Assembly (NCBI GenBank): GCA_028583405.1
Contig: CM053261.1
Coordinates: forward strand, 12,580,459-12,644,458
DNA from: Pogonophryne albipinna
Taxonomy: Eukaryota > Chordata > Actinopteri > Perciformes > Artedidraconidae
Reading direction: 5' to 3'
Length of the DNA stretch: 64,000 bases
Both the position numbers and the translations under genes were made by a program. Position 1 is the stretch's first letter. Every line of letters starts with the position of its first letter. Below the pieces are notes generated by a model. The model did not search any database. It worked only from the letters and a program-made list of their open reading frames with translations, and was not told where the DNA came from. Shown here piece after piece: positions 35,651 through 64,000 of the stretch.

Positions 35651-35667
35651 AACTAATAATTATCCTA

Positions 35668-35735
35668 TTCCATACCGAGTTGAACTGGGCCACCTGGGTG
35701 AGAACCAGGAATCCTAAACGCTAGACCATATGGGA
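35668..35735 (-). pseudogene. tRNA-Glu, degenerate
   Basis: 68 nt, several one-base deletions in acceptor and T arm; next to the gap, so low-quality consensus is possible. Confidence 0.6.
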
Positions 35736-35831
35736 CATGTTAATTGTTGTTTTTTTGCATATTTTGCGAGAGAACTATACTATGTGGTATTTGCATAATT
35801 TAGACAAACTAAACTATACTAATATTACCTA

Positions 35832-35900
35832 TTCCCATACCGGGAGTTGAACCGGGACACCTGGTGAGAACCAGGAATCCTAACGCTAGACCATATGGGA
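35832..35900 (-). pseudogene. tRNA-Glu(CTC), degenerate
   Basis: 69 nt; deletions in T stem, variable region and D arm. Confidence 0.6.
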
Positions 35901-36000
35901 CTTGTAATTGTTTTTTTATTTTCCATATTTTCAAGATACTATACTATGTGGTATTTTAGCATAATTTTAGACCAACTAAACTATACCAATAAATATCCTA

Positions 36001-36072
36001 TTCCAATTCCAGGGAGTTGACCACGGGCCACATGGGTGAGAACCAGGAATCCTAACCGTAGGACCATAGGGA
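36001..36072 (-). pseudogene. tRNA-Glu(CTC), degenerate
   Basis: Acceptor stem altered on both strands (TTCCAATTCC on plus; CATAGGGA). Confidence 0.6.
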
Positions 36073-36166
36073 CATGTTAACATTGCTGTTTTTTGCATAT
36101 TTTCAGAGAACTATACTATGTGGTATTTTTGCATATTTTAGACAAACTAAACTAATAATTATCCTA

Positions 36167-36239
36167 TTCCCATACCGGGAGTTGAACCCGAGGCCACCTG
36201 GGTGAGAACCAGGAATCCTAACCGCTAGACCATATGGGA
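36167..36239 (-). tRNA. tRNA-Glu(CTC)
   Basis: 73 nt; one extra base in the T stem. Confidence 0.7.
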
Positions 36240-36336
36240 CATGTTAATTGTTGTTTTTTTGCATATTTTCGAGATACTATACTATGTGGTATTTTGCATA
36301 TTTTAGACAAACTAAACTATACTAATATATATGCTA

Positions 36337-36407
36337 TTCCCATACCGGGAGTTGAACCGGGCCACCTGGGTGAGAACCAGGAATCCTAACCGCTAGACCA
36401 TATGGGA
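36337..36407 (-). tRNA. tRNA-Glu(CTC)
   Basis: 71 nt; one base missing from the T stem. Confidence 0.7.
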
Positions 36408-36499
36408 CATGTTAATTGTTGTTTTTTTGCATATTTTCAAGATACTATACTATGTGGTATTTTGCATATTTTAGACAAACTAAACTAATAATTATCCTA

Positions 36500-36571
36500 T
36501 TCCCATACCGGGAGTTGAACCCGGGCCACCTGGGTGAGAACCAGGAATCCTAACCGCTAGACCATATGGGA
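36500..36571 (-). tRNA. tRNA-Glu(CTC), consensus
   Basis: Reference unit. Acceptor TCCCATA/TATGGGA, anticodon arm CCTGG-TTCTCAC-CCAGG, T arm CCGGG-TTCAACT-CCCGG, discriminator A. A box (TGGTCTAGCGG) and B box (GGTTCAACTCC) fit Pol III consensus. No encoded CCA, as expected in eukaryotes. Compared with the vertebrate tRNA-Glu(TTC) as I recall it, it differs only at residue 34 (C) and 57 (A). Confidence 0.95.
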
Positions 36572-36668
36572 CATGTTAATTGTTGTTTTTTTGCATATTT
36601 TCGAGAAACTATACTATGTGGTATTTTGCATAATTTAGACAAACTAAACTATACTAATTATTATCCTA

Positions 36669-36739
36669 TTCCCATACAGGGAGTTGAACCCGGGCCAACT
36701 GGTGAGAACCAGGAGTCCTAACCGCTAGACCATATGGGA
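36669..36739 (-). tRNA. tRNA-Glu(CTC)
   Basis: 71 nt; G65U, base lost near the anticodon stem, U25C. Confidence 0.65.
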
Positions 36740-36830
36740 CATGTTAATTGTTGTTTTTTTGCATATTTTCAAGATACTATACTATGTGGTATTTTGCATA
36801 TTTTAGACAAACTAAACTATAATTATCCTA

Positions 36831-36902
36831 TTCCCATACCGGGAGTTGAACCCAGGCCACCTGGGTGAGAACCAGGAATCCTAACCGCTAGACCATATGG
36901 GA
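36831..36902 (-). tRNA. tRNA-Glu(CTC)
   Basis: 72 nt; C50U (wobble with G64). Confidence 0.85.
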
Positions 36903-36998
36903 CATGTTAATTGTTGTTTTTTGCATATTTTCGAGAAACTATACTATGTGGTATTTTGCATAATTTAGACCAACTAAACTATACTAATTATTATCCTA

Positions 36999-37073
36999 TT
37001 CCCATACAGGGAGTTGAACCCAGGGCCACCTGGGTGAGAACCAGGAATCCTAACCGCTAGAACCATTATGGGA
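36999..37073 (-). tRNA. tRNA-Glu(CTC)
   Basis: 75 nt; G65U and three one-base insertions. Confidence 0.6.
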
Positions 37074-37164
37074 CATGTTAATTGTTGTTTTTTGCAGATT
37101 TTCAAGATAATATACTATGTGGTATTTTGCATATTTTAGACAAACTAAACTAATAATTATCTTA

Positions 37165-37236
37165 TTCCAATACCGGGAGTTGAACCCGGGCCACCTGGGT
37201 GAGAACCAGGAATCCTAACCGCTAGACCATATGGGA
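37165..37236 (-). tRNA. tRNA-Glu(CTC)
   Basis: 72 nt; one acceptor-stem mismatch. Confidence 0.8.
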
Positions 37237-37333
37237 CATGTTAATTGTTGTTTTTTTGCATATTTTCGAGAAACTATACTATGTGGTATTTTGCATATTT
37301 TCGACAAACTAAACTAAACCAATAAATATCCTA

Positions 37334-37407
37334 TTCCCATACCTGGAGTTGAATCCCGGGCCACCTGGGTGAGAACCAGGAATCCTGAACGGCTAGACCA
37401 TATGGGA
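37334..37407 (-). tRNA. tRNA-Glu(CTC)
   Basis: 74 nt; T-stem and D-arm changes. Confidence 0.6.
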
Positions 37408-37499
37408 CATGTTAATTGTTGTTTTTTCGCATATTTGCGAGAAACTATACTATGTGGTATTTTGCATATTTTAGACAAACTAAACTAATAATTATCCTA

Positions 37500-37571
37500 T
37501 TCCCATACCGGGAGTTGAAACTGGGCCACCTGGGTGAGAACCAGGAATCCTAACCGCTAGACCATATGGGA
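37500..37571 (-). tRNA. tRNA-Glu(CTC)
   Basis: 72 nt; two T-stem changes. Confidence 0.75.
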
Positions 37572-37662
37572 CATGTTAATTGTTGTTTTTTCGCATCTTT
37601 GCGAGAAACTATACTATGTGGTATTATGCATATTTAGACAAACTAAACTAATAATTATCCTA

Positions 37663-37734
37663 TTCCCATACCGGTAGCTGAACTCGGGCCACCTGGGTGA
37701 GAACCAGGAATCCTAACCGCTAGACCATATGGGA
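37663..37734 (-). tRNA. tRNA-Glu(CTC)
   Basis: 72 nt; T-arm TAGCT variant on plus strand plus one further T-stem change. Confidence 0.7.
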
Positions 37735-37832
37735 CATGTTAATTGTTGTTTTTTGCATATTTTCGAAGATAACTATACTATGTGGTATTTTGCATAATTT
37801 AGACAAACTAAACTATACTAATTATTATCCTA

Positions 37833-37904
37833 TTCCCATACAGGGAGTTGAACCCGGGCCACCTGGGTGAGAACCAGGAATCCTAACCGCTAGACCATAT
37901 GGGA
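37833..37904 (-). tRNA. tRNA-Glu(CTC)
   Basis: 72 nt; only G65U (one T-stem mismatch). Confidence 0.85.
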
Positions 37905-37989
37905 CTTGTTAATTGTTGTTTTTTTTGCATATTTTCAAGATAATGTGGTATTTTGCATATTTTCGACAAACTAAACTATAATTATCCTA

Positions 37990-38061
37990 TTCCCATACCG
38001 GGAGTTGAACCCGGGCCACCTGGGTGAGAACCAGGAATCCTAACCGCTAGACCATATGGGA
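37990..38061 (-). tRNA. tRNA-Glu(CTC), consensus
   Basis: Matches the reference unit throughout. Confidence 0.93.
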
Positions 38062-38152
38062 CATGTTAATTGTTGTTTTTTGCATATTTTCAAGATAATA
38101 TACTATGTGGTATTTTGCATATTTTAGACAAACTAAACTAATAATTATCCTA

Positions 38153-38224
38153 TTCCCATACCGGGAGTTGAACCCGGGCCACCTGGGTGAGAACCAGGAA
38201 TCCTAACCGCTAGACCATATGGGA
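38153..38224 (-). tRNA. tRNA-Glu(CTC), consensus
   Basis: Matches the reference unit throughout. Confidence 0.93.
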
Positions 38225-38316
38225 CATGTTAATTGTTGTTTTTTTCGCATCTTTGTGAGAAACTATACTATGTGGTATTTTGCATATTTAGACATACTAA
38301 ACTAATAATTACCCTA

Positions 38317-38388
38317 TTCCCATACCGGGAGTTGAACCAGGGCCACCTGGGTGAGAACCAGGAATCCTAACCGCTAGACCATATGGGA
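38317..38388 (-). tRNA. tRNA-Glu(CTC)
   Basis: 72 nt; one T-stem change. Confidence 0.82.
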
Positions 38389-38485
38389 CATGTTAATTGT
38401 TGTTTTTTTGCATATTTTCGAGAAACTATACTATGTGGTATTTTGCATAATTTAGACAAACTAAACTATACTAATTATAATCCTA

Positions 38486-38557
38486 TTCCCATACAGAGAG
38501 TTGAACCCGGGCCACCTGGGTGAGAACCAGGAGTCCTAACCGCTAGACCATATGGGA
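38486..38557 (-). tRNA. tRNA-Glu(CTC)
   Basis: 72 nt; two T-stem changes (plus ACAGAGAG) and U25C. Confidence 0.75.
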
Positions 38558-38648
38558 CTTGTTAATTGTTGTTTTTTTGCATATTTTCAAGATACTATAC
38601 TATGTGGTATTTTGCATATTTTAGACAAACTAAACTATAATTATCCTA

Positions 38649-38721
38649 TTCCCATACCGGGAGTTGAACCCAGGCCACCTGGGTGAAAACCAGGAATCCC
38701 TAACCGCTAGACCATATGGGA
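38649..38721 (-). tRNA. tRNA-Glu(TTC), anticodon variant
   Basis: C34U gives anticodon TTC with an intact anticodon stem; C50U and one inserted base elsewhere (73 nt). Confidence 0.75.
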
Positions 38722-38818
38722 CATGTTAATTATTGTTTTTTGCATATTTTCGAAGAAACTATACTATGTGGTATTTTGCATAATTTAGACCAACTAAACT
38801 ATACTAATTATTATCCTA

Positions 38819-38890
38819 TTCCCATACAGGGAGTTGAACCCGGGCCACCTGGGTGAGAACCAGGAATCCTAACCGCTAGACCATATGGGA
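38819..38890 (-). tRNA. tRNA-Glu(CTC)
   Basis: 72 nt; only G65U. Confidence 0.85.
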
Positions 38891-38984
38891 CATGTTAATT
38901 GTTTTTTTTGTTGCATATTTTCGAAGATAATATACTATGTGGTATTTTGCATATTTTAGACAAACTAAACTAATAATTATCTTA

Positions 38985-39057
38985 TTCCCATACCGGGAGT
39001 TGAACCCGGGCCACCTGGGTGAGAACCAGGAATCCTAACCGCTAGGACCATATGGGA
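38985..39057 (-). tRNA. tRNA-Glu(CTC)
   Basis: 73 nt; one inserted base in the D stem. Confidence 0.75.
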
Positions 39058-39154
39058 CATGTTAATTGTTGTTTTTTTGCATATTTGCGAGAAACTATAC
39101 TATGTGGTATTTTGCATATTTTCGACAAACTAAACTAAACCAATAAATATCCTA

Positions 39155-39226
39155 TTCCCATACCGGGAGTTGAACCCGGAACACCTGGGTGAGAACCAGG
39201 AATCCTAACCGATAGACAATATGGGA
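39155..39226 (-). tRNA. tRNA-Glu(CTC), A box altered
   Basis: G9U and G15U weaken the A box; variable-region changes. Confidence 0.65.
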
Positions 39227-39318
39227 CATGTAAATTGTTGTTTTTTTCGCATATTTCGAGAACTATTCTATGTGGTATTTTGCATATTTTAGACAAACTA
39301 AAACTAATAATTATCCTA

Positions 39319-39390
39319 TTCCATTACCGGTAGCTGAACCCGGGCCACCTGGGTGAGAAACAGGAATCCTAACCGCTAGACCATATGGGA
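39319..39390 (-). tRNA. tRNA-Glu(CTC)
   Basis: Acceptor changes, TAGCT T-arm variant and G31U. One of few units with a T4 just downstream. Confidence 0.65.
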
Positions 39391-39481
39391 CATGTTAATT
39401 GTTGTTTTTTTGCATATTTTATAGATACTATACTATGTGGTATTTTGCATATTTTAGACAAACTAAACTAATAATTATCTA

Positions 39482-39553
39482 TTCCCATACCGGGAGTTGA
39501 ACCTGGGCCACCTGGGTGAGAACCAGGAATCCTAACCGCTAGACCATATGGGA
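39482..39553 (-). tRNA. tRNA-Glu(CTC)
   Basis: 72 nt; G51A (T-stem mismatch). Confidence 0.82.
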
Positions 39554-39650
39554 CATGTTAATTGTTGTTTTTTTGCATATTTTCGAGAAACTATACTATG
39601 TGGTATTTTGCATAATTTAGACAAACTAAAATATACTAATTATTATCCTA

Positions 39651-39722
39651 TTCCCATACAGGGAGTTGAACCCAGGCCACCTGGTTGAAAAACAGGAATC
39701 CTAACCGCTAGACCATATGGAA
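39651..39722 (-). tRNA. tRNA-Glu(TTC)-like
   Basis: C34U and G31U: anticodon TTC but stem pair 31-39 lost; G65U, C50U. Confidence 0.65.
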
Positions 39723-39816
39723 CATGTTAATTGTTGTTTTTTTTGCATATTTGTCGAGATACTATACTATGTGGTATTTTGCATATTTTAGACAAACTAA
39801 ACTAATAATTATCTTA

Positions 39817-39888
39817 TTCCCATACCGGGAGTTGAACCCGGGCCACCTGGGTGAGAACCAGGAATCCTAACCGCTAGGCCATATGGGA
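39817..39888 (-). tRNA. tRNA-Glu(CTC)
   Basis: 72 nt; only U11C in the D stem. Confidence 0.85.
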
Positions 39889-39981
39889 CATGTTAATTCG
39901 TTGTTTTTTTGCATATTTTCAAGATAATATACTATGTGGTATTTTGCATATTTTAGACAAACTAAACTAATAATTATCTTA

Positions 39982-40053
39982 TTCCCATACCGGGAGTTGA
40001 ACCCGGGCCACCTGGGTGAGAACCAGGAATCCTAACCGATAGACCATATGGGA
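39982..40053 (-). tRNA. tRNA-Glu(CTC)
   Basis: 72 nt; only G15U (A box). Confidence 0.8.
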
Positions 40054-40149
40054 CATGTAAATTGTTGTTTTTTCGCATATTTCGAGATACTATACTATGT
40101 GGTATTAAGCATATTTTAGACCAACTAAACTATACCAATAAATATCCTA

Positions 40150-40217
40150 TTCCAATTCCAGGAGTTGAACACAGGCCACATGGGTGAGAACCAGGAATCC
40201 TAACCGCTAGACCATGT
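40150..40217 (-). pseudogene. tRNA-Glu, 5' acceptor strand lost
   Basis: The text ends CTAGACCATGTTAA: the 5' acceptor strand is deleted; acceptor 3' strand also altered. Confidence 0.7.
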
Positions 40218-40305
40218 TAATTGTTTTGTTTTTTGCATATTTTCAAGATAATATACTATGTGGTATTTTGCATATTTTAGACAAACTAAACTAATAATTA
40301 TCCTA

Positions 40306-40377
40306 TTCCCATACCGGGAGTTGAACCCGGGCCACCTGGGTGAGAACCAGGAATCCTAACCGCTAGACCATATGGGA
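40306..40377 (-). tRNA. tRNA-Glu(CTC), consensus
   Basis: Matches the reference unit throughout. Confidence 0.93.
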
Positions 40378-40474
40378 CATGTTAATTGTTGTTTTTTTGC
40401 ATATTTTCGAGAAACTATACTATGTGGTATTTTGCATAATTTAGACAAACTAAACTATACTAATTATTATCCTT

Positions 40475-40546
40475 TTCCCATACAGGGAGTTGAACCCGGG
40501 CCACCTGGGTGAAAAACAGGAATCCTAACCGCTAGACCATTTGGAA
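40475..40546 (-). tRNA. tRNA-Glu(TTC)-like
   Basis: C34U with G31U; G65U; acceptor changes (plus CCATTTGGAA). Confidence 0.65.
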
Positions 40547-40638
40547 CATGTTAATTGTTGTTTTTTTGCATATTTTCAAGATACTATACTATGTGATATT
40601 TTGCATATTTTAGACAAACTAAACTAATAATTATCCTA

Positions 40639-40698
40639 TTCCCATACCGGGATCTGAACCCGGGCCACCAGGAATCCTAACCGCTAGACCATATGGGA
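40639..40698 (-). pseudogene. tRNA-Glu lacking anticodon
   Basis: 60 nt; a 12-nt deletion removes most of the anticodon loop. Confidence 0.85.
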
Positions 40699-40795
40699 CA
40701 TGTTAATTGTTGTTTTTTTGCATATTTTCGAGAAACTATACTATATGGTATTTTGCATATTTTAGACAAACTAAACTAAACCAATAAATATCCTA

Positions 40796-40867
40796 TTCCC
40801 ATACCGGGAGTAGAACCCGGGCCATATGGGTGAGAACCAGGAATCCTAACCGCTAGACCATATGGGA
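40796..40867 (-). tRNA. tRNA-Glu(CTC)
   Basis: 72 nt; T-loop change (plus GTAGAA) and changes near the anticodon stem (plus CATATGGG). Confidence 0.7.
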
Positions 40868-40959
40868 CATGATAACAAATTTTTTTTAAAATATTTTCGA
40901 GATACTATACTAAATGGTATTTTGCATATTTTCGACAAACTAAACCAAAAAATATCCTA

Positions 40960-41022
40960 TTCCCTTACCGGGAGTTGAACCCGGGCCACCTGGGTGAGAA
41001 CCAGGAATCCTAACCGCTAGAC
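40960..41022 (-). pseudogene. tRNA-Glu interrupted by hAT copy 1
   Basis: The 3' part up to the TSD; the 5' part (CATATGGGA on plus) resumes at 42647-42655. A T6 run lies just downstream of this broken copy. Confidence 0.9.
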
Positions 41023-41444
41023 CAGGGGTCTCCAACCTTGCTCCACCTGAGAGCTACTTTGAAACAATGAAAGTGGCCAAGAGCTACTTGCATCACATCA
41101 CTTACATTTATTCACATAGCCCTCATCAGTTGAATTAAGCTACTTTTGTACACGTGTGAAATTTCAATACCTAAAGCTTATCAAAGATCTTGACTTCACA
41201 TCAAGGTCCAAGAAAACGAAAATGTCTCACTTCTTATTATGGCCCACATAGTAAATACATCACCTTAATCACCACCTTACAAGCATCTTATGGCACGTGT
41301 AAAATAAGTGCATTCACTCTTTTTTACAGTTAGTGAGATGAATGACGCTGCATGGAGTCACCATAGAGGTGTATGCTGGAGTGTACCCACTTAGGTTCAC
41401 TCTAATAGTCATTTAAATGTTCATCAGTCGGTCTTGTTCTGTAT

Positions 41445-41650
41445 TTAGATTTCATTCATGCCAGAAAAAGCTGCTTCACAAAGGTATGTAGAGCCAAATA
41501 AAGCAGACATGTTCAGTGCTGCTTGGTGAATGTTCTTATAGTTTTCTGGGTCTACAAGGCTCCAGAAATGTTGTGAGTTTTGCTGAGACTTCAGCTGAAC
41601 ATGATTTTGGAGATTTATAACCTCCATCTCCATCTGGATTGACACTGAAC
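41445..41650 (-). pseudogene. hAT transposase dimerisation-domain relic, copy 1
   Basis: Minus strand encodes LKSQQNSQHFWSLVDPENY and ALNMSALFGSTYLCEAAFSG, a hAT C-terminal dimerisation signature, ending at a stop after MNEI. The expected continuation (SKYRTRPTDEHLNDY) is in another frame just below. The upstream frame runs into poly-Arg from the CTT repeat. Confidence 0.75.
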
Positions 41651-41658
41651 AGTTCAGT

Positions 41659-41719
41659 CTTCTTCTTCTTCTTCTTCTTCTTCTTCTTCTTCTTCTTCTT
41701 CTTCTTCTTCTTCTTCTTC
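41659..41719. repeat. (CTT)n microsatellite, copy 1
   Basis: About 20 units; reads as poly-Arg on the minus strand. Confidence 0.95.
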
Positions 41720-42752
41720 GTGTTGACATTAAATTATAAACCATAATAAATCAATTGTATAGGTCTAGCCTCCCTATATCTGTGTGTGACATTTTTCCAT
41801 TCTCAAAAACAAAAAACTAATACTGCTGCAGTCTAGCTGCAGCTTCTAGCAACGGTCTTCTGTTAAAGAAAGGACACTGAAGGTCCTGAATGTGGCATCA
41901 CTAACATGACTTATGTCTGAACACAGCAGACAACAGGAGTATTTACAACAGCATATCAAAGCAAAAATAGTGCATGTGGGTGCACACTTATTCTCTGTCT
42001 TACTGTTCCATTAATCCCATGAATGTATAAGACTAAGTTAGCTTCATCATCTCAATCAGTGATTAAGTGAATAATAACGTTTCTATCGGGTCACTATCAG
42101 CCTGTCACTCATTATTTTCAGGAGGGGGCGGGGTTTGGAGGAACGGAGGAGACGGTGATCGCGGAAGCTTTCTTCCTGCCTTCACAAACTTTACACAATT
42201 ATTTATCAACTGAAAATAGCAAGAGGACATTCATACTCTGCAATCCAAGACTTGATTAAATCCACCAAAAACCTGACATGACGATAACGAGTGTTTTTCA
42301 AAAACACAAATCCCTCCCTGTGTGTCTCTGAGCCGCAGCGACACGGCCTGATTCAGAGCGGGTCATTCTGCTGTTGGTTCTGGACTGGTGTTGCTGGAGA
42401 AAGCAGACTGCTCCGTGTGTGGTGTCGCTGTGCCGCTGTCACGTCTGTTCCTTGATCTCTGCGTCACCGACCGATTTGATATTCGTGTGACAGAAAAAAA
42501 TCTAAAATCAAAAAACTTTATTGTCCAAAATCAAGAAGCAACCTTACTACGCGCTATGATCGATAATCGAGCGGCGAGCTGCTGAAAAGCTGCCCGCGAG
42601 CTACCGGTAGCTCACGATCGACGTGTTGGAGACCCCTGCGCTAGACCATATGGGACATGTTAATTGTTGTTTTTTTGCATATTTTCTAGAAACTATACTA
42701 TGTGGTATTTTGCATAATTTAGACAAACTAAACTATACTAATTATTATCCTA

Positions 42753-42825
42753 TTCCCAATACCGGGAGTTGAACCCAGGCCACCTGGGTGAGAACCAGGA
42801 ATCCTAACCGCTAGACCATATGGGA
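42753..42825 (-). tRNA. tRNA-Glu(CTC)
   Basis: 73 nt; extra base in acceptor stem, C50U. Confidence 0.7.
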
Positions 42826-42922
42826 CATGTTACTTGTTGTTTTTTTGCCTATTTTCAAGATACTATACTATGTGGTATTTTGCATAATTTAGACAAACTA
42901 AATTATACTAATTATTATCTTA

Positions 42923-42994
42923 TTCCCATAAAGGGAGTTGAACCAGGGCCACCTTGGTGAGAACCAGGAGTCCTAACCGCTAGACCATATGGGA
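42923..42994 (-). tRNA. tRNA-Glu(CTC)
   Basis: T-stem and anticodon-stem mismatches, U25C. Confidence 0.65.
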
Positions 42995-43091
42995 CTTGTT
43001 AATTGTTGTTTTATTGCATATTTTCAAGATACTATACAATGTGGTATTTTGCATAATTTAGACCAACTAAACTATACCAACAAATATCCTA

Positions 43092-43162
43092 TTCCAATTC
43101 CGGGAGTTGAACACGGGCCACATGGGTGAGAACCAGGAATCCTAACCGTAGACCATATGGGA
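43092..43162 (-). tRNA. tRNA-Glu(CTC), degenerate
   Basis: 71 nt; altered acceptor 3' strand, D-arm deletion. Confidence 0.6.
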
Positions 43163-43259
43163 CATGTAAATTGCTGTTTTTTTGCATATTTTCGAGAAAC
43201 TATACTATGTGGTATTTTGCATAATTTAGACAAACTAAACTATACTAATTATTATCCTA

Positions 43260-43331
43260 TTCCCATACAGGGAGTTGAACCCAGGCCACCTGGGTGAGAA
43301 CCAGGAATCCTAAACGCAAGACCATATGGGA
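43260..43331 (-). tRNA. tRNA-Glu(CTC)
   Basis: G65U, C50U and D-arm changes (plus AAACGCAAG). Confidence 0.65.
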
Positions 43332-43428
43332 CTTGTTAATTGTTGTTTTTTTGCATATTTTCAAGATAATATACTATGTGGTATTTTGCATATTTTAGAC
43401 AAACTAAACTATACTAATAATTATCCTA

Positions 43429-43500
43429 TTCCCATACCGGGAGTTGAAACCGGAACACCTGGGTGAGAACCAGGAATCCTAACCGATAGACCATATGGGA
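43429..43500 (-). tRNA. tRNA-Glu(CTC)
   Basis: T-stem and variable-region changes, G15U. Confidence 0.65.
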
Positions 43501-51717: not shown

Positions 51718-51725
51718 AGTTCAGT

Positions 51726-56152: not shown

Positions 56153-56223
56153 TTCCCATACCGGAGTTGAACCCGGGCCACATGGGTGAGAACCAGGAAT
56201 CCTAACCGCTAGACCATATGGGA
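56153..56223 (-). tRNA. tRNA-Glu(CTC)
   Basis: 71 nt; T-stem base missing, one change by the anticodon stem. Confidence 0.68.
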
Positions 56224-56315
56224 CATTGTTAATTGTTGTTTTTCGCATATTTTCGAGAAACTATACTATGTGGTATTTTGCATATTTTAGACAAACTAAA
56301 CTAATAATTATCCTA

Positions 56316-56387
56316 TTCCCATACCGGGAGTTGAACCCAGGCCACCTGGGTGAGAACCAGGAATCCTAACCGCTAGACCATATGGGA
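56316..56387 (-). tRNA. tRNA-Glu(CTC)
   Basis: 72 nt; only C50U. Confidence 0.87.
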
Positions 56388-56484
56388 CATGTTAATTGGT
56401 TGTTTTTTGCATATTTTCAAGAAACTATACTATGTGGTATTTTGCATAATTTAGACAAACTAAACTATACTAATTATTATCCTA

Positions 56485-56556
56485 TTCCCATACAGGGAGT
56501 TGAACCCGGGCCACCTGGGTGAGAACCAGGAATCCTAACCGCTAGACCATATGGGA
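56485..56556 (-). tRNA. tRNA-Glu(CTC)
   Basis: 72 nt; only G65U. Confidence 0.85.
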
Positions 56557-56649
56557 CATGTTAATTGTTGTTTTTTTTGCATATTTTCAAGATAATATAC
56601 TATGTGGTATTTTGCATATTTTAGACAAACTAAACTAATAATTATCCTA

Positions 56650-56721
56650 TTCCCATACCGGGAGTTGAACCCGGGCCACCTGGGTGAGAACCAGGAATCC
56701 TAACCGCTAGACCATATGGGA
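56650..56721 (-). tRNA. tRNA-Glu(CTC), consensus
   Basis: Matches the reference unit throughout. Confidence 0.93.
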
Positions 56722-56819
56722 CATGTTAATTGTTGTTTTTTTGCATATTTTCGAGAAACTATACTATGTGGTATTTTGCATATTTTCGACAAACTAAACT
56801 AAACCTAATAATTATCCTA

Positions 56820-56891
56820 TTCCCATACCGGGAGTTGAACCCGGGCCACCTGGGTGAGAACCAGGAATCCTAACCGCTAGACCATATGGGA
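56820..56891 (-). tRNA. tRNA-Glu(CTC), consensus
   Basis: Matches the reference unit throughout. Confidence 0.93.
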
Positions 56892-56984
56892 CATGTTAAT
56901 TGTTGTTTTTTTCGCATATTTTCGAGATACTATACTATGTGGTATTTTGCATATTTTAGACAAACTAAACTAATAATTATCCTA

Positions 56985-57055
56985 TTCCCATACCGGGAGT
57001 TGAACCGGGCCACCTGGGTGAGAACCAGGAATCCTAACCGCTAGACCATATGGGA
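56985..57055 (-). tRNA. tRNA-Glu(CTC)
   Basis: 71 nt; T-stem base missing. Confidence 0.72.
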
Positions 57056-57152
57056 CATGTTAATTGTTGTTTTTTTGCATATTTTCGAGAAACTATACTA
57101 TGTGGTATTTTGCATATTTTAGACAAACTAAACTATACTAATAATTATCCTA

Positions 57153-57224
57153 TTCCCATACCGGGAGTTGAACCCGGGCCACCTGGGTGAGAACCAGGAA
57201 TCCTAACCGCTAGACCATATGGGA
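57153..57224 (-). tRNA. tRNA-Glu(CTC), consensus
   Basis: Matches the reference unit throughout. Confidence 0.93.
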
Positions 57225-57320
57225 CATGTTAATTGTTGTTTTTTTGCATATTTTCGAGAAACTATACTATGTGGTATTTTGCATATTTTAGACAAACTAA
57301 ACTATACTAATTATATCCTA

Positions 57321-57392
57321 TTCCCATACCGGGAGTTGAACCCGGGCCACCTGGGTGAGAACCAGGAATCCTAACCGCTAGACCATATGGGA
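57321..57392 (-). tRNA. tRNA-Glu(CTC), consensus
   Basis: Matches the reference unit throughout. Confidence 0.93.
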
Positions 57393-57490
57393 CATGTTAA
57401 TTGTTGTTTTTTTGCAATATTTTCGAGATACTATACTATGTGGTATTTTGCATATTTTCGACAAACTAAACTATACTAATAACTATCCTA

Positions 57491-57560
57491 TTCCCATACC
57501 GGGAGTTGAACCGGGCCACATGGGTGAGAACCAGGAATCCTAACGCTAGACCATATGGGA
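57491..57560 (-). tRNA. tRNA-Glu(CTC)
   Basis: 70 nt; bases missing in T stem and D arm. Confidence 0.62.
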
Positions 57561-57656
57561 CATGTTAATTGTTGTTTTTTCGCATATTTGCGAGAAACTA
57601 TACTATGTGGTATTTTGCATATTTTCGACAAACTAAACTAAACTAATAATATCCTA

Positions 57657-57728
57657 TTCCCATACCGGGAGTTGAACCCGGAACACCTGGGTGAGAACCA
57701 GGAATCCTAACCGATAGACCATATGGGA
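57657..57728 (-). tRNA. tRNA-Glu(CTC)
   Basis: Variable-region changes and G15U. Confidence 0.68.
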
Positions 57729-57819
57729 CATGTAAATTGTTGTTTTTTCGCATATTTCGAGATACTATACTATGTGGTATTAAGCATATTTTAGACCAAC
57801 TATACCAATAAATATCCTA

Positions 57820-57890
57820 TTCCAATTCCGGGAGTTGAACACGGGCCACATGGGTGAGAACCAGGAATCCTACCGCTAGACCATATGGGA
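57820..57890 (-). tRNA. tRNA-Glu(CTC), degenerate
   Basis: 71 nt; altered acceptor 3' strand, G52U, D-arm deletion. Confidence 0.6.
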
Positions 57891-57988
57891 CATGTTAATT
57901 GTTGTTTTTTTGCATATTTTCGAAGATACTATACTATGTGGTATTTTGCATATTTTAGACAAACTAAACTATACTAATTATTATCCTA

Positions 57989-58059
57989 TTCCCATACAGG
58001 GAGTTGAACCTTGCCAACTGGGTGAGAACCAGGAGTCCTAACCGCTAGACCATATGGGA
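57989..58059 (-). tRNA. tRNA-Glu(CTC)
   Basis: 71 nt; G65U, T-stem changes, U25C. Confidence 0.62.
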
Positions 58060-58152
58060 CATTGTTAATTGTTGTTTTTTTGCATATTTTCGAAGAAACT
58101 ATACTATGTGGTATTTTGCATATTTTAGACAAACTAAACTATAATTATCCTA

Positions 58153-58224
58153 TTCCCATACCGGGAGTTGAACCGAGGCCACCTGGTGAGAACCAGGAAT
58201 CCTAACCGCTTAGACCATATGGGA
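58153..58224 (-). tRNA. tRNA-Glu(CTC)
   Basis: T-stem change; compensating one-base loss (anticodon stem side) and gain (D arm). Confidence 0.62.
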
Positions 58225-58316
58225 CATGTTAATTGTTGTTTTTTGCATATTTTCAAGATAACTATACTATTGGTATTTTGCATATTTTAGACAAACTAAA
58301 CTAATAAATTATCCTA

Positions 58317-58387
58317 TTCCCATACCGGGAGTTGAATCCGGGCCACCTGGGTGAGAACCAGGATCCTAACCGCTAGACCATATGGGA
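58317..58387 (-). tRNA. tRNA-Glu(CTC)
   Basis: 71 nt; G53A and one base missing near residue 26. Confidence 0.65.
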
Positions 58388-58474
58388 CATGTTAATTGTT
58401 GTTTTTTTGCATATTTGTGAGAAACTATACTATGTGGTATTTTGCATATTTTAGACAAACTAAACATAATCCTA

Positions 58475-58546
58475 TTCCCATACCGGGAGTTGAACCCAGG
58501 CCACCTGGGTGAGAACCAGGAATCCTAACCGCTAGACCATATGGGA
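58475..58546 (-). tRNA. tRNA-Glu(CTC)
   Basis: 72 nt; only C50U. Confidence 0.87.
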
Positions 58547-58642
58547 CATGTTAATTGTTGTTTTTTTGCATATTTCAAGATAATATACTATGTGGTATTT
58601 TGCATAATTTAGACAAACTAAACTATACTAATAATTATCCTA

Positions 58643-58714
58643 TTCCCATACCGGGAGTTGAACCCGGGCCACATGGGTGAGAACCAGGAATCCTAACCGC
58701 TAGACCATATGGGA
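58643..58714 (-). tRNA. tRNA-Glu(CTC)
   Basis: 72 nt; one change next to the anticodon stem (plus CACATGGG). Confidence 0.82.
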
Positions 58715-58806
58715 CTTGTTAATTGTTGTTTTTTTGCATATTTTCAAGATACTATACTATGTGGTATTTTGCATATTTTAGACAAACTAAACTAATAATT
58801 ATCCTA

Positions 58807-58878
58807 TTCCCATACCGGGAGTTGAACCCAGGCCACCTGGGTGAGAACCAGGAATCCTAACCGCTAGACCATATGGGA
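58807..58878 (-). tRNA. tRNA-Glu(CTC)
   Basis: 72 nt; only C50U. Confidence 0.87.
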
Positions 58879-58975
58879 CATGTTAATTGTTGTTTTTTTG
58901 CATATTTTCAAGAAACTATACTATGTGGTATTTTGCATAATTTAGACAAACTAAACTATACTAATTATTATCCTA

Positions 58976-59047
58976 TTCCCATACCGGGAGTTGAACCCGG
59001 GCCACCTGGGTGAGAACCAGGAATCCTAACCGCTAGACCATATGGGA
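58976..59047 (-). tRNA. tRNA-Glu(CTC), consensus
   Basis: Matches the reference unit throughout. Confidence 0.93.
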
Positions 59048-59142
59048 CATGTTAATTGTTGTTTTTTTTGCATATTTTCAAGATAACTATACTATGTGGT
59101 ATTTTGCATAATTTTAGACAAACTAAACTAATAATTATCCTA

Positions 59143-59214
59143 TTCCCATACCGGGAGTTGAACCCGGGCCACCTGGGTGAGAACCAGGAATCCTAACCGC
59201 TAGACCATATGGGA
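59143..59214 (-). tRNA. tRNA-Glu(CTC), consensus
   Basis: Matches the reference unit throughout. Confidence 0.93.
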
Positions 59215-59310
59215 CATGTTAATTGTTGTTTTTTTTGCATATTTTCGAGAAACTATACTATGTGGTATTTTGCATATTTTCGACAAACTAAACTAACAAT
59301 AAATATCCTA

Positions 59311-59382
59311 TTCCCATACCGGGAGTTGAACCCGGAACACCTGGGTGAGAACCAGGAATCCTAACCGATAGACAATATGGGA
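59311..59382 (-). tRNA. tRNA-Glu(CTC), A box altered
   Basis: G9U, G15U and variable-region changes. Confidence 0.65.
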
Positions 59383-59479
59383 CATGTAAATTGTTGTTTT
59401 TTTCGCATATTTTCGAGATAACTATACTATGTGGTATTTTGCATATTTTAGACCAACTAAACTATACCAATATATCCTA

Positions 59480-59551
59480 TTCCCATACCGGGAGTTGAAC
59501 CCGGGCCACCTGGGTGAGAACCAGGAATCCTAACCGCTAGACCATATGGGA
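59480..59551 (-). tRNA. tRNA-Glu(CTC), consensus
   Basis: Matches the reference unit throughout. Confidence 0.93.
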
Positions 59552-59643
59552 CATGTTAATTGTTGTTTTTTTGCATATTTTCAAGATACTATACTATGTG
59601 GTATTTTGCATATTTTAGACAAACTAAACTAATAATTATCCTA

Positions 59644-59715
59644 TTCCCATACCGGGAGTTGAACCCGGGCCACCTGGGTGAGAACCAGGAATCCTAACCG
59701 CTAGACCATATGGGA
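59644..59715 (-). tRNA. tRNA-Glu(CTC), consensus
   Basis: Matches the reference unit throughout. Confidence 0.93.
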
Positions 59716-59812
59716 CATGTTAATTGTTGTTTTTTTGCATATTTTCGAGAAACTATACTATGTGGTATTTTGCATAATTTAGACAAACTAAACTATACTA
59801 ATTATTATCCTA

Positions 59813-59884
59813 TTCCCATACAGGGAGTTGAACCCAGGCCACCTGGGTGAGAACCAGGAATCCTAACCGCTAGACCATATGGGA
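59813..59884 (-). tRNA. tRNA-Glu(CTC)
   Basis: 72 nt; G65U and C50U. Confidence 0.82.
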
Positions 59885-59976
59885 CATGTTAATTGTTGTT
59901 TTTTTGCATATTTTCGAGATACTATACTATGTGGTATTTTGCATATTTTAGACAAACTAAACTAATAATTATCCTA

Positions 59977-60048
59977 TTCCCATACCGGGAGTTGAACCCG
60001 GGCCACCTGGGTGAGAACCAGGAATCCTAACCGCTAGGCCATATGGGA
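59977..60048 (-). tRNA. tRNA-Glu(CTC)
   Basis: 72 nt; only U11C. Confidence 0.85.
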
Positions 60049-60140
60049 CATGTTAATTGTTGTTTTTTTGCATATTTTCAAGATAATATACTATGTGGTA
60101 TTTTGCATATTTTAGACAAACTAAACTAATAATTATCCTA

Positions 60141-60212
60141 TTCCCATACCGGGAGTTGAACCCGGGCCACCTGGGTGAGAACCAGGAATCCTAACCGATA
60201 GACCATATGGGA
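60141..60212 (-). tRNA. tRNA-Glu(CTC)
   Basis: 72 nt; only G15U. Confidence 0.8.
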
Positions 60213-60309
60213 CATGTAATTGTTGTTTTTTTGCATATTTTCGAGATACTATACTATGTGGTATTTAGCATATTTTAGACCAACTAAACTATACCAATAA
60301 ATGATCCTA

Positions 60310-60381
60310 TTCCCATACCGGGAGTTGAACACAGGCCACATGGGTGAGATACAGGAATCCTAACCGCTAGACCATATGGGA
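60310..60381 (-). tRNA. tRNA-Glu(CTC)
   Basis: T-stem and anticodon-stem changes as in 50210, but with consensus acceptor. Confidence 0.68.
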
Positions 60382-60474
60382 CATGTTAATTGTTTGTTTT
60401 TTGCATATTTTCGAGATAACTATACTATGTGGTATTTTGCATATTTTAGACAAACTAAACTAATAATTATCCTA

Positions 60475-60546
60475 TTCCCATACCGGGAGTTGAACCCGGG
60501 CCACCTGGGTGAGAACCAGGAATCCTAACCGCTAGACCATATGGGA
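60475..60546 (-). tRNA. tRNA-Glu(CTC), consensus
   Basis: Matches the reference unit throughout. Confidence 0.93.
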
Positions 60547-60643
60547 CATGTTAATTGTTGTTTTTTTGCATATTTTCGAGAAACTATACTATGTGGTATT
60601 TTGCATAATTTAGACAAACTAAACTATACTAATTATTATCCTA

Positions 60644-60716
60644 TTCCCATACAGGGAGTTGAACCCGGGCCACCTGGGTGAAAAACGAGGAATCCTAACC
60701 GCTAGACCATATGGGA
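60644..60716 (-). tRNA. tRNA-Glu(TTC)-like
   Basis: 73 nt; C34U with an inserted base in the anticodon stem, G65U. Confidence 0.65.
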
Positions 60717-60809
60717 CATGTTAATTGTTGTTTTTTTGCATATTTTCAAGATACTATACTATGTGGATATTTTGCATATTTTCGACAAACTAAACTAATA
60801 ATTATCCTA

Positions 60810-60881
60810 TTCCCATACCGGGAGTCTGAACCCGGGCCACCTGGGTGAGAACAGGAATCCTAACCGCTAGACCATATGGGA
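60810..60881 (-). tRNA. tRNA-Glu(CTC)
   Basis: 72 nt by compensating indels. Counterpart units 40639 and 50707 lack the anticodon, yet here it is present. Confidence 0.62.
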
Positions 60882-60976
60882 CATGTTAATTGTTGTTTTT
60901 TGCATATTTTCGAGAAACTATACTATGTGGTATTTTGCATATTTAGACAAACTAAACTAAACCAATAAATATCCTA

Positions 60977-61048
60977 TTCCCATACCGGGAGTGGAACCCG
61001 GGCCACATGGGTGAGAACCAGGAATCCTAACCGCTAGACCATATGGGA
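60977..61048 (-). tRNA. tRNA-Glu(CTC)
   Basis: T-loop change (plus GTGGAA) and one change next to the anticodon stem. Confidence 0.72.
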
Positions 61049-61141
61049 CATGATAAATGTTTTTTTTTAAAATATTTTCGAGATAATATACTAAGTGGTA
61101 TTTTGCATATTTTCGGACAAACTAAACCAAAAAATATCCTA

Positions 61142-61204
61142 TTCCCATACCGGGAGTTGAACCCGGGCCACCTGGGTGAGAACCAGGAATCCTAACCGCT
61201 AGAC
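61142..61204 (-). pseudogene. tRNA-Glu interrupted by hAT copy 3
   Basis: 3' part up to the TSD; 5' part resumes at 62832-62841. Confidence 0.9.
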
Positions 61205-61624
61205 CAGGGGTCTCCAACCTTGCTCCACCTGAGAGCTACTTTGAAACAATGAAAGTGGCCAAGAGCTACTTGCATCACATCACTTACATTTATTCACATA
61301 GCCCTCATCAGTTGAATTAAGCTACTTTTGTACACGTGTGAAATTTCAATACCTAAAGCTTATCAAAGATCTTGACTTCACATCAAGGTCCAAGAAAACG
61401 AAAATGTCTCACTTCTTATTATGGCCCACATAGTAAATACATCACCTTAATCACCACCTTACAAGCATCTTATGGCACGTGTAAAATAAGTGCATTCACT
61501 CTTTTTTACAGTAGTGAGATGAATGACGCTGCATGGAGTCACCATAGAGGTGTATGCTGGAGTGTACCACTTAGGTTCACTCTAATAGTCATTTAAATGT
61601 TCATCAGTCGGTCTTGTTCTGTAT

Positions 61625-61830
61625 TTAGATTTCATTCATGCCAGAAAAAGCTGCTTCACAAAGGTATGTAGAGCCAAATAAAGCAGACATGTTCAGTGCT
61701 GCTTGGTGAATGTTCTTATAGTTTTCTGGGTCTACAAGGCTCCAGAAATGTTGTGAGTTTTGCTGAGACTTCAGCTGAACATGATTTTGGAGATTTATAA
61801 CCTCCATCTCCATCTGGATTGACACTGAAC
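61625..61830 (-). pseudogene. hAT dimerisation-domain relic, copy 3
   Basis: Same relic and same break as copies 1 and 2. Confidence 0.75.
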
Positions 61831-61838
61831 AGTTCAGT

Positions 61839-61902
61839 CTTCTTCTTCTTCTTCTTCTTCTTCTTCTTCTTCTTCTTCTTCTTCTTCTTCTTCTTCTTCT
61901 TC
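61839..61902. repeat. (CTT)n microsatellite, copy 3
   Basis: One triplet longer than the other copies. Confidence 0.95.
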
Positions 61903-62941
61903 GTGTTGACATTAAATTATAAACCATAATAAATCAATTGTATAGGTCTAGCCTCCCTATATCTGTGTGTGACATTTTTTCCATTCTCAAAAACAAAAAA
62001 CTAATACTGCTGCAGTCTAGCTGCAGCTTCTAGCAACGGTCTTCTGTTAAAGAAAGGACACTGAAGGTCCTGAATGTGGCATCACTAACATGACTTATGT
62101 CTGAACACAGCAGACAACAGGAGTATTTACAACAGCATATCAAAGCAAAAATAGTGCATGTGGGTGCACACTTATTCTCTGTCTTACTGTTCCATTAATC
62201 CCATGAATGTATAAGACTAAGTTAGCTTCATCATCTCAATCAGTGATTAAGTGAATAATAACGTTTCTATCGGGTCACTATCAGCCTGTCACTCATTATT
62301 TTCAGGAGGGGGCGGGGTTTGGAGGAACGGAGGAGACGGTGATCGCGGAAGCTTTCTTCCTGCCTTCACAAACTTTACACAATTATTTATCAACTGAAAA
62401 TAGCAAGAGGACATTCATACTCTGCAATCCAAGACTTGATTAAATCCACCAAAAACCTGACATGACGATAACGAGTGTTTTTCAAAAACACAAATCCCTC
62501 CCTGTGTGTCTCTGAGCCGCAGCGACACGGCCTGATTCAGAGCGGGTCATTCTGCTGTTGGTTCTGGACTGGTGTTGCTGGAGAAAGCAGACTGCTCCGT
62601 GTGTGGTGTCGCTGTGCCGCTGTCACGTCTGTTCCTTGATCTCTGCGTCCACCGACCGATTTGATATTCGTGTGACAGAAAAAAATCTAAAATCAAAAAA
62701 CTTTATTGTCCAAAATCAAGAAGCAACCTTACTACGCGCTATGATCGATAATCGAGCGGCGAGCTGCTGAAAAGCTGCCCGCGAGCTACCGGTAGCTCAC
62801 GATCGACGTGTTGGAGACCCCTGCGCTAGACCCATATGGGACATTGTTAATTGTTGTTTTTTTTGCATATTTTCTAGAAACTATACTAATGTGGTATTTT
62901 GCATAATTTAGACAAACTAAACTATACTAATTATTATCCTA

Positions 62942-63014
62942 TTCCCAATACCGGGAGTTGAACCCAGGCCACCTGGGTGAGAACCAGGAATCCTAACCGC
63001 TAGACCATATGGGA
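62942..63014 (-). tRNA. tRNA-Glu(CTC)
   Basis: 73 nt; same as 42753 and 52820. Confidence 0.7.
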
Positions 63015-63111
63015 CATGTTACTTGTTGTTTTTTTGCCTATTTTCAAGATACTATACTATGTGGTATTTTGCATAATTTAGACAAACTAAATTATACTAA
63101 TTATTATCTTA

Positions 63112-63181
63112 TTCCCATAAAGGGTTGAACCAGGGCCACCTTGGTGAGAACCAGGAGTCCTAACCGCTAGACCATATGGGA
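63112..63181 (-). tRNA. tRNA-Glu(CTC)
   Basis: 70 nt; as 42923 with a 2-base loss in the T stem. Confidence 0.6.
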
Positions 63182-63278
63182 CTTGTTAATTGTTGTTTTA
63201 TTGCATATTTTCAAGATACTATACAATGTGGTATTTTGCATAATTTAGACCAACTAAACTATACCAACAAATATCCTA

Positions 63279-63349
63279 TTCCAATTCCGGGAGTTGAACA
63301 CGGGCCACATGGGTGAGAACCAGGAATCCTAACCGTAGACCATATGGGA
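63279..63349 (-). tRNA. tRNA-Glu(CTC), degenerate
   Basis: 71 nt; same as 43092. Confidence 0.6.
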
Positions 63350-63446
63350 CATGTAAATTGCTGTTTTTTTGCATATTTTCGAGAAACTATACTATGTGGT
63401 ATTTTGCATAATTTAGACAAACTAAACTATACTAATTATTATCCTA

Positions 63447-63518
63447 TTCCCATACAGGGAGTTGAACCCAGGCCACCTGGGTGAGAACCAGGAATCCTAA
63501 ACGCAAGACCATATGGGA
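63447..63518 (-). tRNA. tRNA-Glu(CTC)
   Basis: Same variant set as 43260. Confidence 0.65.
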
Positions 63519-63615
63519 CTTGTTAATTGTTGTTTTTTTGCATATTTTCAAGATAATATACTATGTGGTATTTTGCATATTTTAGACAAACTAAACTATA
63601 CTAATAATTATCCTA

Positions 63616-63687
63616 TTCCCATACCGGGAGTTGAAACCGGAACACCTGGGTGAGAACCAGGAATCCTAACCGATAGACCATATGGGA
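63616..63687 (-). tRNA. tRNA-Glu(CTC)
   Basis: Same variant set as 43429. Confidence 0.65.
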
Positions 63688-63783
63688 CATGTAAATTGTT
63701 GTTTTTTCGCATATTTCGAGATACTATACTATGTGGTATTAAGCATATTTTAGACCAACTAAACTATACCAATAAATATCCTA

Positions 63784-63855
63784 TTCCAATTCCAGGAGTT
63801 GAACACGGGCCACATGGGTGAGAACCAGGAATCCTAACCGCTAGACCATATGGGA
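63784..63855 (-). tRNA. tRNA-Glu(CTC)
   Basis: Same variant set as 43597. Confidence 0.65.
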
Positions 63856-63946
63856 CATGTTCAAAAATTTTTTTTTCATATTTTCAAGATAATATACTAT
63901 GTGGTATTTTGCGTATTTTAGACAAACTAAACTAATAATTATCCTA

Positions 63947-64000
63947 TTCCCATACCGGAGTTGAACCTGGGCCACATGGGTGAGAACCAGGAATCCTAAC
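63947..64000 (-). tRNA. tRNA-Glu(CTC), cut by window edge
   Basis: Starts like 43760 with a missing T-stem base; the 5' end of the tRNA lies beyond the window. Confidence 0.65.

Follow-up and report, generated by a model that had tools for sequence, protein, structure and literature searches.

A tRNA-Glu-CTC array in Pogonophryne albipinna with satellite-like organization, few Pol III terminators, and hAT-type elements at a single A-box site

Is a long head-to-tail array of tRNA-Glu copies a battery of working genes, or a satellite whose units still look like genes? The question is raised by a 64,000-nucleotide stretch of Pogonophryne albipinna contig CM053261.1 (C20:12,580,459-12,644,458; assembly of 1.07 Gb in 861 contigs), hereafter the window, whose right part is taken up by such an array with the anticodon CTC. 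Four observations are new here. RNA polymerase III (Pol III) terminators are mostly missing in this CTC array and present in a related array with the anticodon TTC, and the CTC array carries a higher-order repeat of ~10.1 kb marked by 3 copies of one 1.6-kb hAT-type transposon within a tRNA A box. In addition, the tRNA is as variable as its spacer, with stem pairs lost at about the rate predicted by chance, and 4 hAT-type families of dissimilar sequence occupy one A-box position. We think it probable that the locus is a satellite that arose from a TTC-gene copy with a shifted anticodon and no terminator and that spread by unequal exchange, with no clear sign of upkeep as working genes.

Units were counted by an edit-distance scan of the minus strand with a 71-nt consensus, taking non-overlapping matches, and window numbering was carried rightward beyond the window as "ext." The features that define the array are as follows.

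35669..64000, minus strand: tandem array of 142 tRNA-Glu units, period 156-171 bp, with 3 interruptions (edit-distance scan, ARAGORN, Rfam)
36501..36571, minus strand: example of a consensus-identical 71-nt unit, anticodon CTC, 62.5 bits with Rfam
34651..35650, no strand: 1000-N assembly gap over the left edge of the array

An initial annotation of this DNA had described 142 minus-strand tRNA-Glu units every ~165 bp, about 22 of them exact and many more 1 change off. The scan of that strand reproduced these figures, with 142 units, of which 22 had 0 edits to the consensus, 31 had 1, 14 had 2, 13 had 3, 28 had 4, 19 had 5, and 15 had 6 or more (1 clipped by the window edge). Successive units were 156-171 bp apart, bar 3 jumps of 1793-1800 bp, and the unit was mostly 163-164 or 168-169 bp long, comprising the 71-nt tRNA-Glu and an AT-rich spacer in one direction throughout. 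ARAGORN, run on both strands of the whole window, called 133 tRNAs on the minus strand only (35832-63855), 7 of them without an assigned amino acid. Covariance-model scoring, which the initial annotation had proposed as a check, gave 130 matches at or above the gathering score of the Rfam tRNA family RF00005, every one within the array (29.3 bits for the lowest, 62.5 for 22 of them), and ~12 of the 142 units fell below that score. We confirm the tandem tRNA-Glu array as real and far above chance level.

The array had also been said to run on past both sides of its visible part, which held for the right side only. With 30 kb more of the right flank, it comprised 182 units, 25 of them exact and 175 with a full following spacer, and it reached ~10.9 kb beyond the window to ~C20:12,655,323 (L010:865, ext 74,865; end set by eye), with a second 1000-N gap inside it (ext 65065-66064). 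On the left, the array begins directly right of the gap at 34651-35650, its edge lying within that gap, and BLAST with a consensus dimer found no match in the 34.65 kb (34,650 bases) to the left, nor in the right flank from ext 74901. The 182 units are the many head-to-tail copies of a short unit that characterize a satellite. A division into functional and dead monomer classes was tried and rejected, as average-linkage clustering grouped 170 units into a single class and left 5 as outliers.

A longer period is superimposed on the unit. Its marker is a hAT-type element, e1, present in 3 copies, and these copies, the blocks of units between them (B1 to B4), and an internal duplication are listed here.

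41023..42638, no strand: hAT-type e1, copy 1, 1616 bp, inverted termini CAGGGGTCTCCAAC, longest internal open frame 101 aa
41015..41022, no strand: left target-site duplication (TSD) CGCTAGAC in the A box of the split tRNA gene, with its second copy at 42639-42646
40961..42655, minus strand: tRNA-Glu gene split by e1 (40961-41022 and 42647-42655; last limits set by eye)
51090..52705, no strand: hAT-type e1, copy 2, identical to copy 1, TSD CGCTAGAC at 51082-51089 and 52706-52713
61205..62823, no strand: hAT-type e1, copy 3, 1619 bp, 0 substitutions and 5 gap openings, TSD CGCTAGAC at 61197-61204 and 62824-62831
35651..41026, minus strand: higher-order block B1, truncated at the gap; 63-71 substitutions and 32-41 indel columns separate its first 500 bp from B2/B3
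42641..51093, minus strand: higher-order block B2, ~8.45 kb of units, 10.07 kb including e1
52708..61208, minus strand: higher-order block B3, its first 2 kb equal to B2 bar 1 substitution, its middle reshuffled
62826..64000, minus strand: start of block B4, which runs to the second 1000-N gap beyond the window
45420..46643, minus strand: gene positions of 8 units that recur at 47896-49120, an offset of 15 units (2476 bp); 7 of the 8 pairs are identical and 1 has 1 change

The e1 copies recur every 10,067 and 10,115 bp, giving the higher-order repeat of ~10.1 kb (61 units). Because they show no substitutions between them (the 5 gap openings are confined to the third copy) and are regularly spaced, one insertion was probably amplified together with its surroundings. 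Two neighboring blocks of 10 kb are 97.3% identical over a 10.1-kb alignment. Right of e1, no substitution separates B2 and B3 over the initial 1.5 kb, a single one falls in the following 0.5 kb, and farther on they differ by 1.4-5.6% per 500 bp; nearest-neighbor units near e1 are 61 units apart, and the middle of B3 has no fixed register with B2. In total, 202 substitutions and 112 indel columns separate B2 from B3. Among units of the same rank, both alleles of 189 of 198 substitutions also occur at other places in the array. The difference between B2 and B3 therefore reflects mainly unit exchange (or assembly chimerism) and not new mutation. The 61-unit and 15-unit registers are the homogenization and higher-order structure of a satellite, with the caveat that assembly error may inflate the 10-kb repeats and the block centers may be chimeric. 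With the same caveat, these registers and the substitution-free hAT copies bear out the earlier description of a tRNA-derived satellite with units still gene-like.

That caveat can be carried further, to an array that is real and a 10.1-kb repeat that is partly an artifact, in which one transposon-bearing segment was assembled 2 to 3 times beside an unresolved repeat. Two 1000-N gaps border or cut the array, and indels within the tRNA are commonest beside these gaps, at 1.3 bases per unit on the right of the first and 1.0 on the left of the second, against 0.0-0.8 elsewhere. The near-identity of e1 and ~2 kb beside the more divergent remainder of B2/B3 fits such an artifact, as do the center of B3, which lacks the B2 register and has fewer substitutions and more indels than most stretches, and the weak sharing of the 61-unit register by B2 and B3 left of e1. 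Against it, units directly right of the second gap have 0.0 tRNA indels, the third e1 copy differs in length (1619 vs 1616 bp), and 3 units left of e1 are identical between B1 and B2 in the 61-unit register. Moreover, raw long-read errors are mainly indels, and the B2/B3 difference as counted above is not. We regard this alternative as doubtful.

The array was also examined for what follows each gene. For human Pol III, 4 T in the non-template strand are reported to be enough to terminate (PMC5356446), and a functional tRNA gene would be expected to carry a run of 4 or more T (T4+) shortly downstream. In the CTC array, T4+ within 60 nt 3' was identified in only 11 of 163 ARAGORN genes or, counted by unit, 13 of 182, and the median distance to the next T4+ was 845.5 nt. 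A sister array of tRNA-Glu-TTC lies upstream on the same strand, 224 kb from the CTC array (C20 12.329-12.392 Mb, L012-L019). Counted over readable units, some stretches being N, it had the anticodon TTC in 44 of 44 genes, often at a spacing of ~300 bp, and T4+ within 60 nt 3' in 42 of 44, with 41 at the same 3-nt offset.

The 2 arrays are related in sequence. Among 20 listed matches between the CTC consensus and the TTC array, 14 (~150 bp) showed 79-83% identity over the pre-gene half-spacer and the tRNA, and the other 6 showed 70-75% over 151-295 columns. When the 3' flanks were aligned (TTC consensus from 43 of 44 genes), a 9-bp gap fell over TTTT. Compared with the CTC consensus, the 3 commonest TTC gene bodies, which account for 9 of 44 genes, have other bases at several places. 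These include unit nt 34 and 56, which we take to be standard tRNA positions 34 (anticodon) and 57 (T loop). Within the CTC array, 159 of 175 units had the anticodon CTC, 13 had TTC, and 3 were gapped at this place. All 13 units with TTC retain A at unit nt 56 and therefore look like products of change within this array rather than copies brought in from the TTC array. As read from the sequence, the TTC anticodon itself creates a T4 within the gene. Relic pieces of a CTC-type array were also found at C20 ~13.12 Mb (L021, L022) in the opposite orientation, where a gap and other elements break them up; one of their units has T5.

We looked for selection on the tRNA in the 175 units with a full spacer, among which duplicated units are not independent, and our tests of diversity and stem pairing, repeated on a subset of 132, detected no purifying selection. 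Nucleotide diversity of the tRNA (0.070) was similar to that of the spacer (0.078), as it was without CpG sites (0.059 against 0.070; permutation p = 0.21). Substitution density was the same in stems and spacer (0.047 in each); at non-CpG sites it was 0.035 in stems, 0.041 in the spacer, and 0.027 in loops, with the A box (0.030) and B box (0.037) not clearly below loops or spacer. One-sided stem changes kept the pair in 64 of 292 cases and broke it in 228, a fraction of 0.22 where the substitution spectrum of the spacer predicts 0.27, and of 19 double stem changes 7 restored the pair. Between B2 and B3, 2.1% of tRNA sites and 2.7% of spacer sites differ. The 132 units free of tRNA indels gave the same answer (diversity 0.068 vs 0.073; pairs kept 45, broken 160). 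An intact cloverleaf, which the initial annotation had granted to the consensus-like copies, was limited to a minority, with all 20 stem pairs present in 54 of 175 units. That annotation had left selection, homogenization, or very recent expansion as causes of the uniformity; the last 2 fit the repeats described above, subject to the assembly caveat, and selection is not supported, the tRNA being as variable as the spacer and its stem pairs being broken about as often as chance predicts.

Two candidate signs were set aside. Dinucleotide-shuffled consensus spacers lacked T4+ in 74% of cases, so the absence of T4 is not improbable by itself and was not taken as a sign of selection. Transitions at CpG were raised (spacer 0.257 and tRNA 0.049, against 0.005-0.021 at other C/G), yet CpG decay was not relied on as proof of methylation because the spacer has a single CpG and one column dominates.

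The satellite origin that we favor could have proceeded in a few steps. A copy of a TTC gene would have changed its anticodon to CTC and its T-loop position 57 to A, and would have lost a short gene-adjacent stretch with the T4 terminator. This founder may then have spread via unequal sister exchange and gene conversion, after which its units would have drifted like ordinary repeat DNA, with homogenization and not selection keeping many of them gene-like. With a median of ~850 nt to the first T4, transcripts initiated by Pol III on an intact unit, if there are any, would extend across several units. Judged from sequence, most copies are probably silent or give unstable read-through RNA, and a minority of units may still yield tRNA-Glu-CTC. 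Consistent with this origin, 5 transposon junctions in A boxes, described below, have been tolerated across the 2 arrays. No report of a terminator-less tRNA satellite was found in the open-access literature searched.

Several observations weigh against this origin. T4+ (T4-T6) occurs anywhere in the spacer in 14 of 175 units, including 2 with T5 toward the right end, at ext 73835 and 74505, and 3 with T6 beside e1; with the T5 unit of the relic array, these indicate that terminator-bearing variants exist or survive. The 3'-flank alignment with the TTC array is weak and has further gaps. At 5 dispersed loci, 4 of them with an ARAGORN tRNA-Glu-TTC, T4 within 60 nt was seen only in L026 (1 of 4), so a missing T4 does not prove silence. 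Human Pol III is also reported to use non-canonical terminators (Orioli 2011, as cited in PMC5356446 and PMC4937561). The whole tRNA matches the consensus in 25 of 175 units, and spacer windows of equal length do so in 1-2, which suggests that some units are maybe kept better than the average implies. Among 111 dereplicated units, non-CpG diversity was 0.060 in the tRNA and 0.077 in the spacer (a comparison without a significance test), and the A and B boxes were both exact in 79 of 175 units (singly, A box 124 and B box 116). Weak constraint may thus act on a subset of units.

The same units could be imagined as a maternal factory, a tandem battery that supplies tRNA-Glu-CTC to the egg and early embryo in the manner of the maternal isodecoders of zebrafish. 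The 22 perfect units of the window and the 130 that reach the Rfam cut-off are what such a battery would contain. The tRNA shows no excess conservation over its spacer, roughly two thirds of the full units have lost at least one stem pair, and ~93% of units have no T4+ within 60 nt, whereas the TTC array keeps it. On this evidence we consider a maternal factory unlikely.

Returning to the satellite and its sister, both have received hAT-type elements at one and the same position of the tRNA gene. Besides e1, the elements concerned, and one outside tRNA, are the following.

ext 70297-73480 (with flanks 70289-73488 = L009:6289-9488): hAT e2, 3184 bp, terminal inverted repeats (TIRs) CAGGGCTATTCAATT, TSD CGCTAGAC/CACTAGAC, same A-box site
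TTC array, L015: e3, 1398 bp, CGCTAGAC on both sides
TTC array, L013: e4, 1652 bp, CGCTAGAC on both sides
TTC array, L013: e5, right-hand end only (left end not found), e4-like, abutting the same 8-mer CGCTAGAC
window 18848-21723: hAT element outside tRNA, exact TSD ATGTAGGT, open 700-aa frame (Dimer_Tnp_hAT), 57% identical to that of e2

An 8-bp TSD and CAGGG-type TIRs, as in hAT elements, were found in e1 to e4. The TSD is exact in e1, e3, and e4 and has 1 mismatch in e2, and the termini pair at 14 of 14 nt in e1, 15 of 16 in e2, 13 of 16 in e3, and 9 of 12 in e4. The open 622-aa frame of e2 matches Dimer_Tnp_hAT (PF05699) at 23.9 bits (cut-off 21.4), the mark of a hAT transposase. By termini and TSD, e1, e3, and e4 are of hAT type; all three may be non-autonomous, and e1, whose longest internal frame is so short, probably is. 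Pairwise comparison of e1 to e4 at E 0.01 revealed no shared sequence except a TCT microsatellite in e1 and e3. Five junctions in 2 arrays thus place 4 mutually dissimilar hAT-type families at the same 8-bp A-box site CGCTAGAC.

Among 18 TA dinucleotides of the consensus unit, one lies in its single CTAG, which is the A-box site, and one more lies in its only further CTA, which corresponds to the site of an e4 relative inserted in a spacer of the relic array at GTCTAAAT. If TA were chosen at random, 5 of 6 events at one site would be expected at ~1 in 2 x 10^4, a rough figure that assumes independence and uses the CTC unit for both arrays. Further hAT-type sites in the flanking and related DNA examined were C(A/C)ATAGAC (a second e3 copy) and CACCTGAA, and all hAT-type sites found have a central TA except CACCTGAA. 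Given the non-tRNA sites of related elements, tRNA genes are not the sole targets of the e2 and e3 types at least. The hot spot is sufficiently explained by a target preference near nnCTAGnn, comparable to the nnnTAnnn reported for TcBuster (PMC3499496), and true tRNA targeting, as described for Dada (PMC8869645, PMC3706591), is possible. Tentatively, the tRNA-Glu arrays could be a safe harbor used independently by several hAT families, with the A-box sequence GTCTAGCG as a landing site reached in convergence with the unrelated Dada, and with one insertion then spread in the 10-kb repeat. A bolder addition is that an active array would yield long multi-tRNA Pol III precursors, because the consensus unit has no T4. 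The open-access literature searched held no report of hATs at a tRNA A box.

The boxes themselves could be what is maintained, in an array that binds TFIIIC as a boundary or replication fork barrier and is kept for its A and B boxes rather than for the tRNA. The units in which both boxes are exact would suit this role, and the human 1q23.3 tRNA tandem repeat has been proposed as a boundary element (PMC4041453). The box substitution densities given above are not clearly lower than those of loops or spacer, and 5 insertions have gone into A boxes of the 2 arrays, which makes such an array highly improbable. A tandem tRNA-derived short interspersed element (SINE), suggested by a tRNA-like head followed by AT-rich sequence, is disfavored and scarcely credible, as the consensus acceptor stem is complete, the units stand strictly head to tail, and a 401-base probe gave at least 134 genome matches, 125 of them in the 2 arrays and 9 outside (5 on other contigs and 4 in the 13.12 Mb relic), where a SINE would show dispersed copies with a tail and TSDs.

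Elsewhere in the window, a Tc1-like element was identified at 10329-11971, with an open 336-aa frame carrying DDE_3 and HTH domains and inverted repeats of ~300 bp (93%). An inverted repeat of ~920 bp (93%) with AT microsatellites at its ends lies at 17331-18247, and parts of it match 10329-10673. A 178-bp tandem repeat with a dimer period of 353-355 bp forms two arrays, at 24347-25503 and 27524-28992, which are ~88-92% alike.

Large tRNA clusters are normal in some fish, and the array belongs to a known kind of locus for that reason. Zebrafish is reported to have ~20,000 tRNA genes, 65% of them clustered, and stickleback to have 87% clustered (PMC2888827), so the density, which the initial annotation had contrasted with dispersed vertebrate tRNA genes, has precedents in fish. 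Zebrafish egg isodecoders are reported to derive from repetitive regions (PMC11417395), and a role in maternal translation has been proposed for the tRNA genes of chromosome 4 (PMC11075544). As in the zebrafish clusters on the long arm of chromosome 4 and elsewhere, with 8676 high-confidence genes, 65% clustered, many tRNA genes stand in fish repeats (PMC11417395, PMC2888827, PMC11075544). The array described here consists of one tRNA in units of mostly 163-169 bp, mostly without T4 and without detectable constraint.

Other tandem tRNA loci share some of these features. The human 1q23.3 tRNA macrosatellite is a tandem tRNA repeat with large copy-number variation, but its unit is reported as 7.3 kb, GC-rich, with several tRNA genes and a CTCF site (PMC4041453). 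Entamoeba has tandem tRNA units that are uniform within isolates, which is attributed to concerted evolution, although there the units hold up to 5 tRNA genes, almost all tRNA genes are included, and the account given describes no clear pseudogene copies (PMC2652664). The Arabidopsis Ser/Tyr (SYY) cluster of tandem tRNA genes, a plant locus of other tRNAs, is reported to meet heterochromatin and to be silenced in most tissues (PMC12308677). Among transposons, Dada elements are fish DNA transposons that insert in tRNA genes, with 5 lineages at nt 8-13 of the A box, but they have TSDs of 6-7 bp, and their U6 and U1 families are described as lacking TIRs (PMC8869645, PMC3706591). The 8-bp TSDs and inverted CAGG termini of e1 to e4 and the hAT transposase of e2 depart from this pattern, and "tRNA-Glu" is absent from the main texts of both Dada papers (PMC8869645, PMC3706591). 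TcBuster-type hATs share the 8-bp TSD of the form nnnTAnnn (PMC3499496), whereas the 5 junctions here share one 8-mer within a tRNA gene.

For fish genomes at large, gene counts from tRNA finders could be inflated by such arrays. The hAT tag gives the order of amplification steps in the array, and since unrelated hAT-type elements have inserted repeatedly at one A-box position, Dada may not be the only transposon group that finds shelter in multicopy tRNA genes. The locus offers a natural case of the passage from gene family to satellite, and the sister arrays, 224 kb apart and with or largely without a terminator, provide a direct contrast on whether the terminator keeps an amplified tRNA gene a gene.

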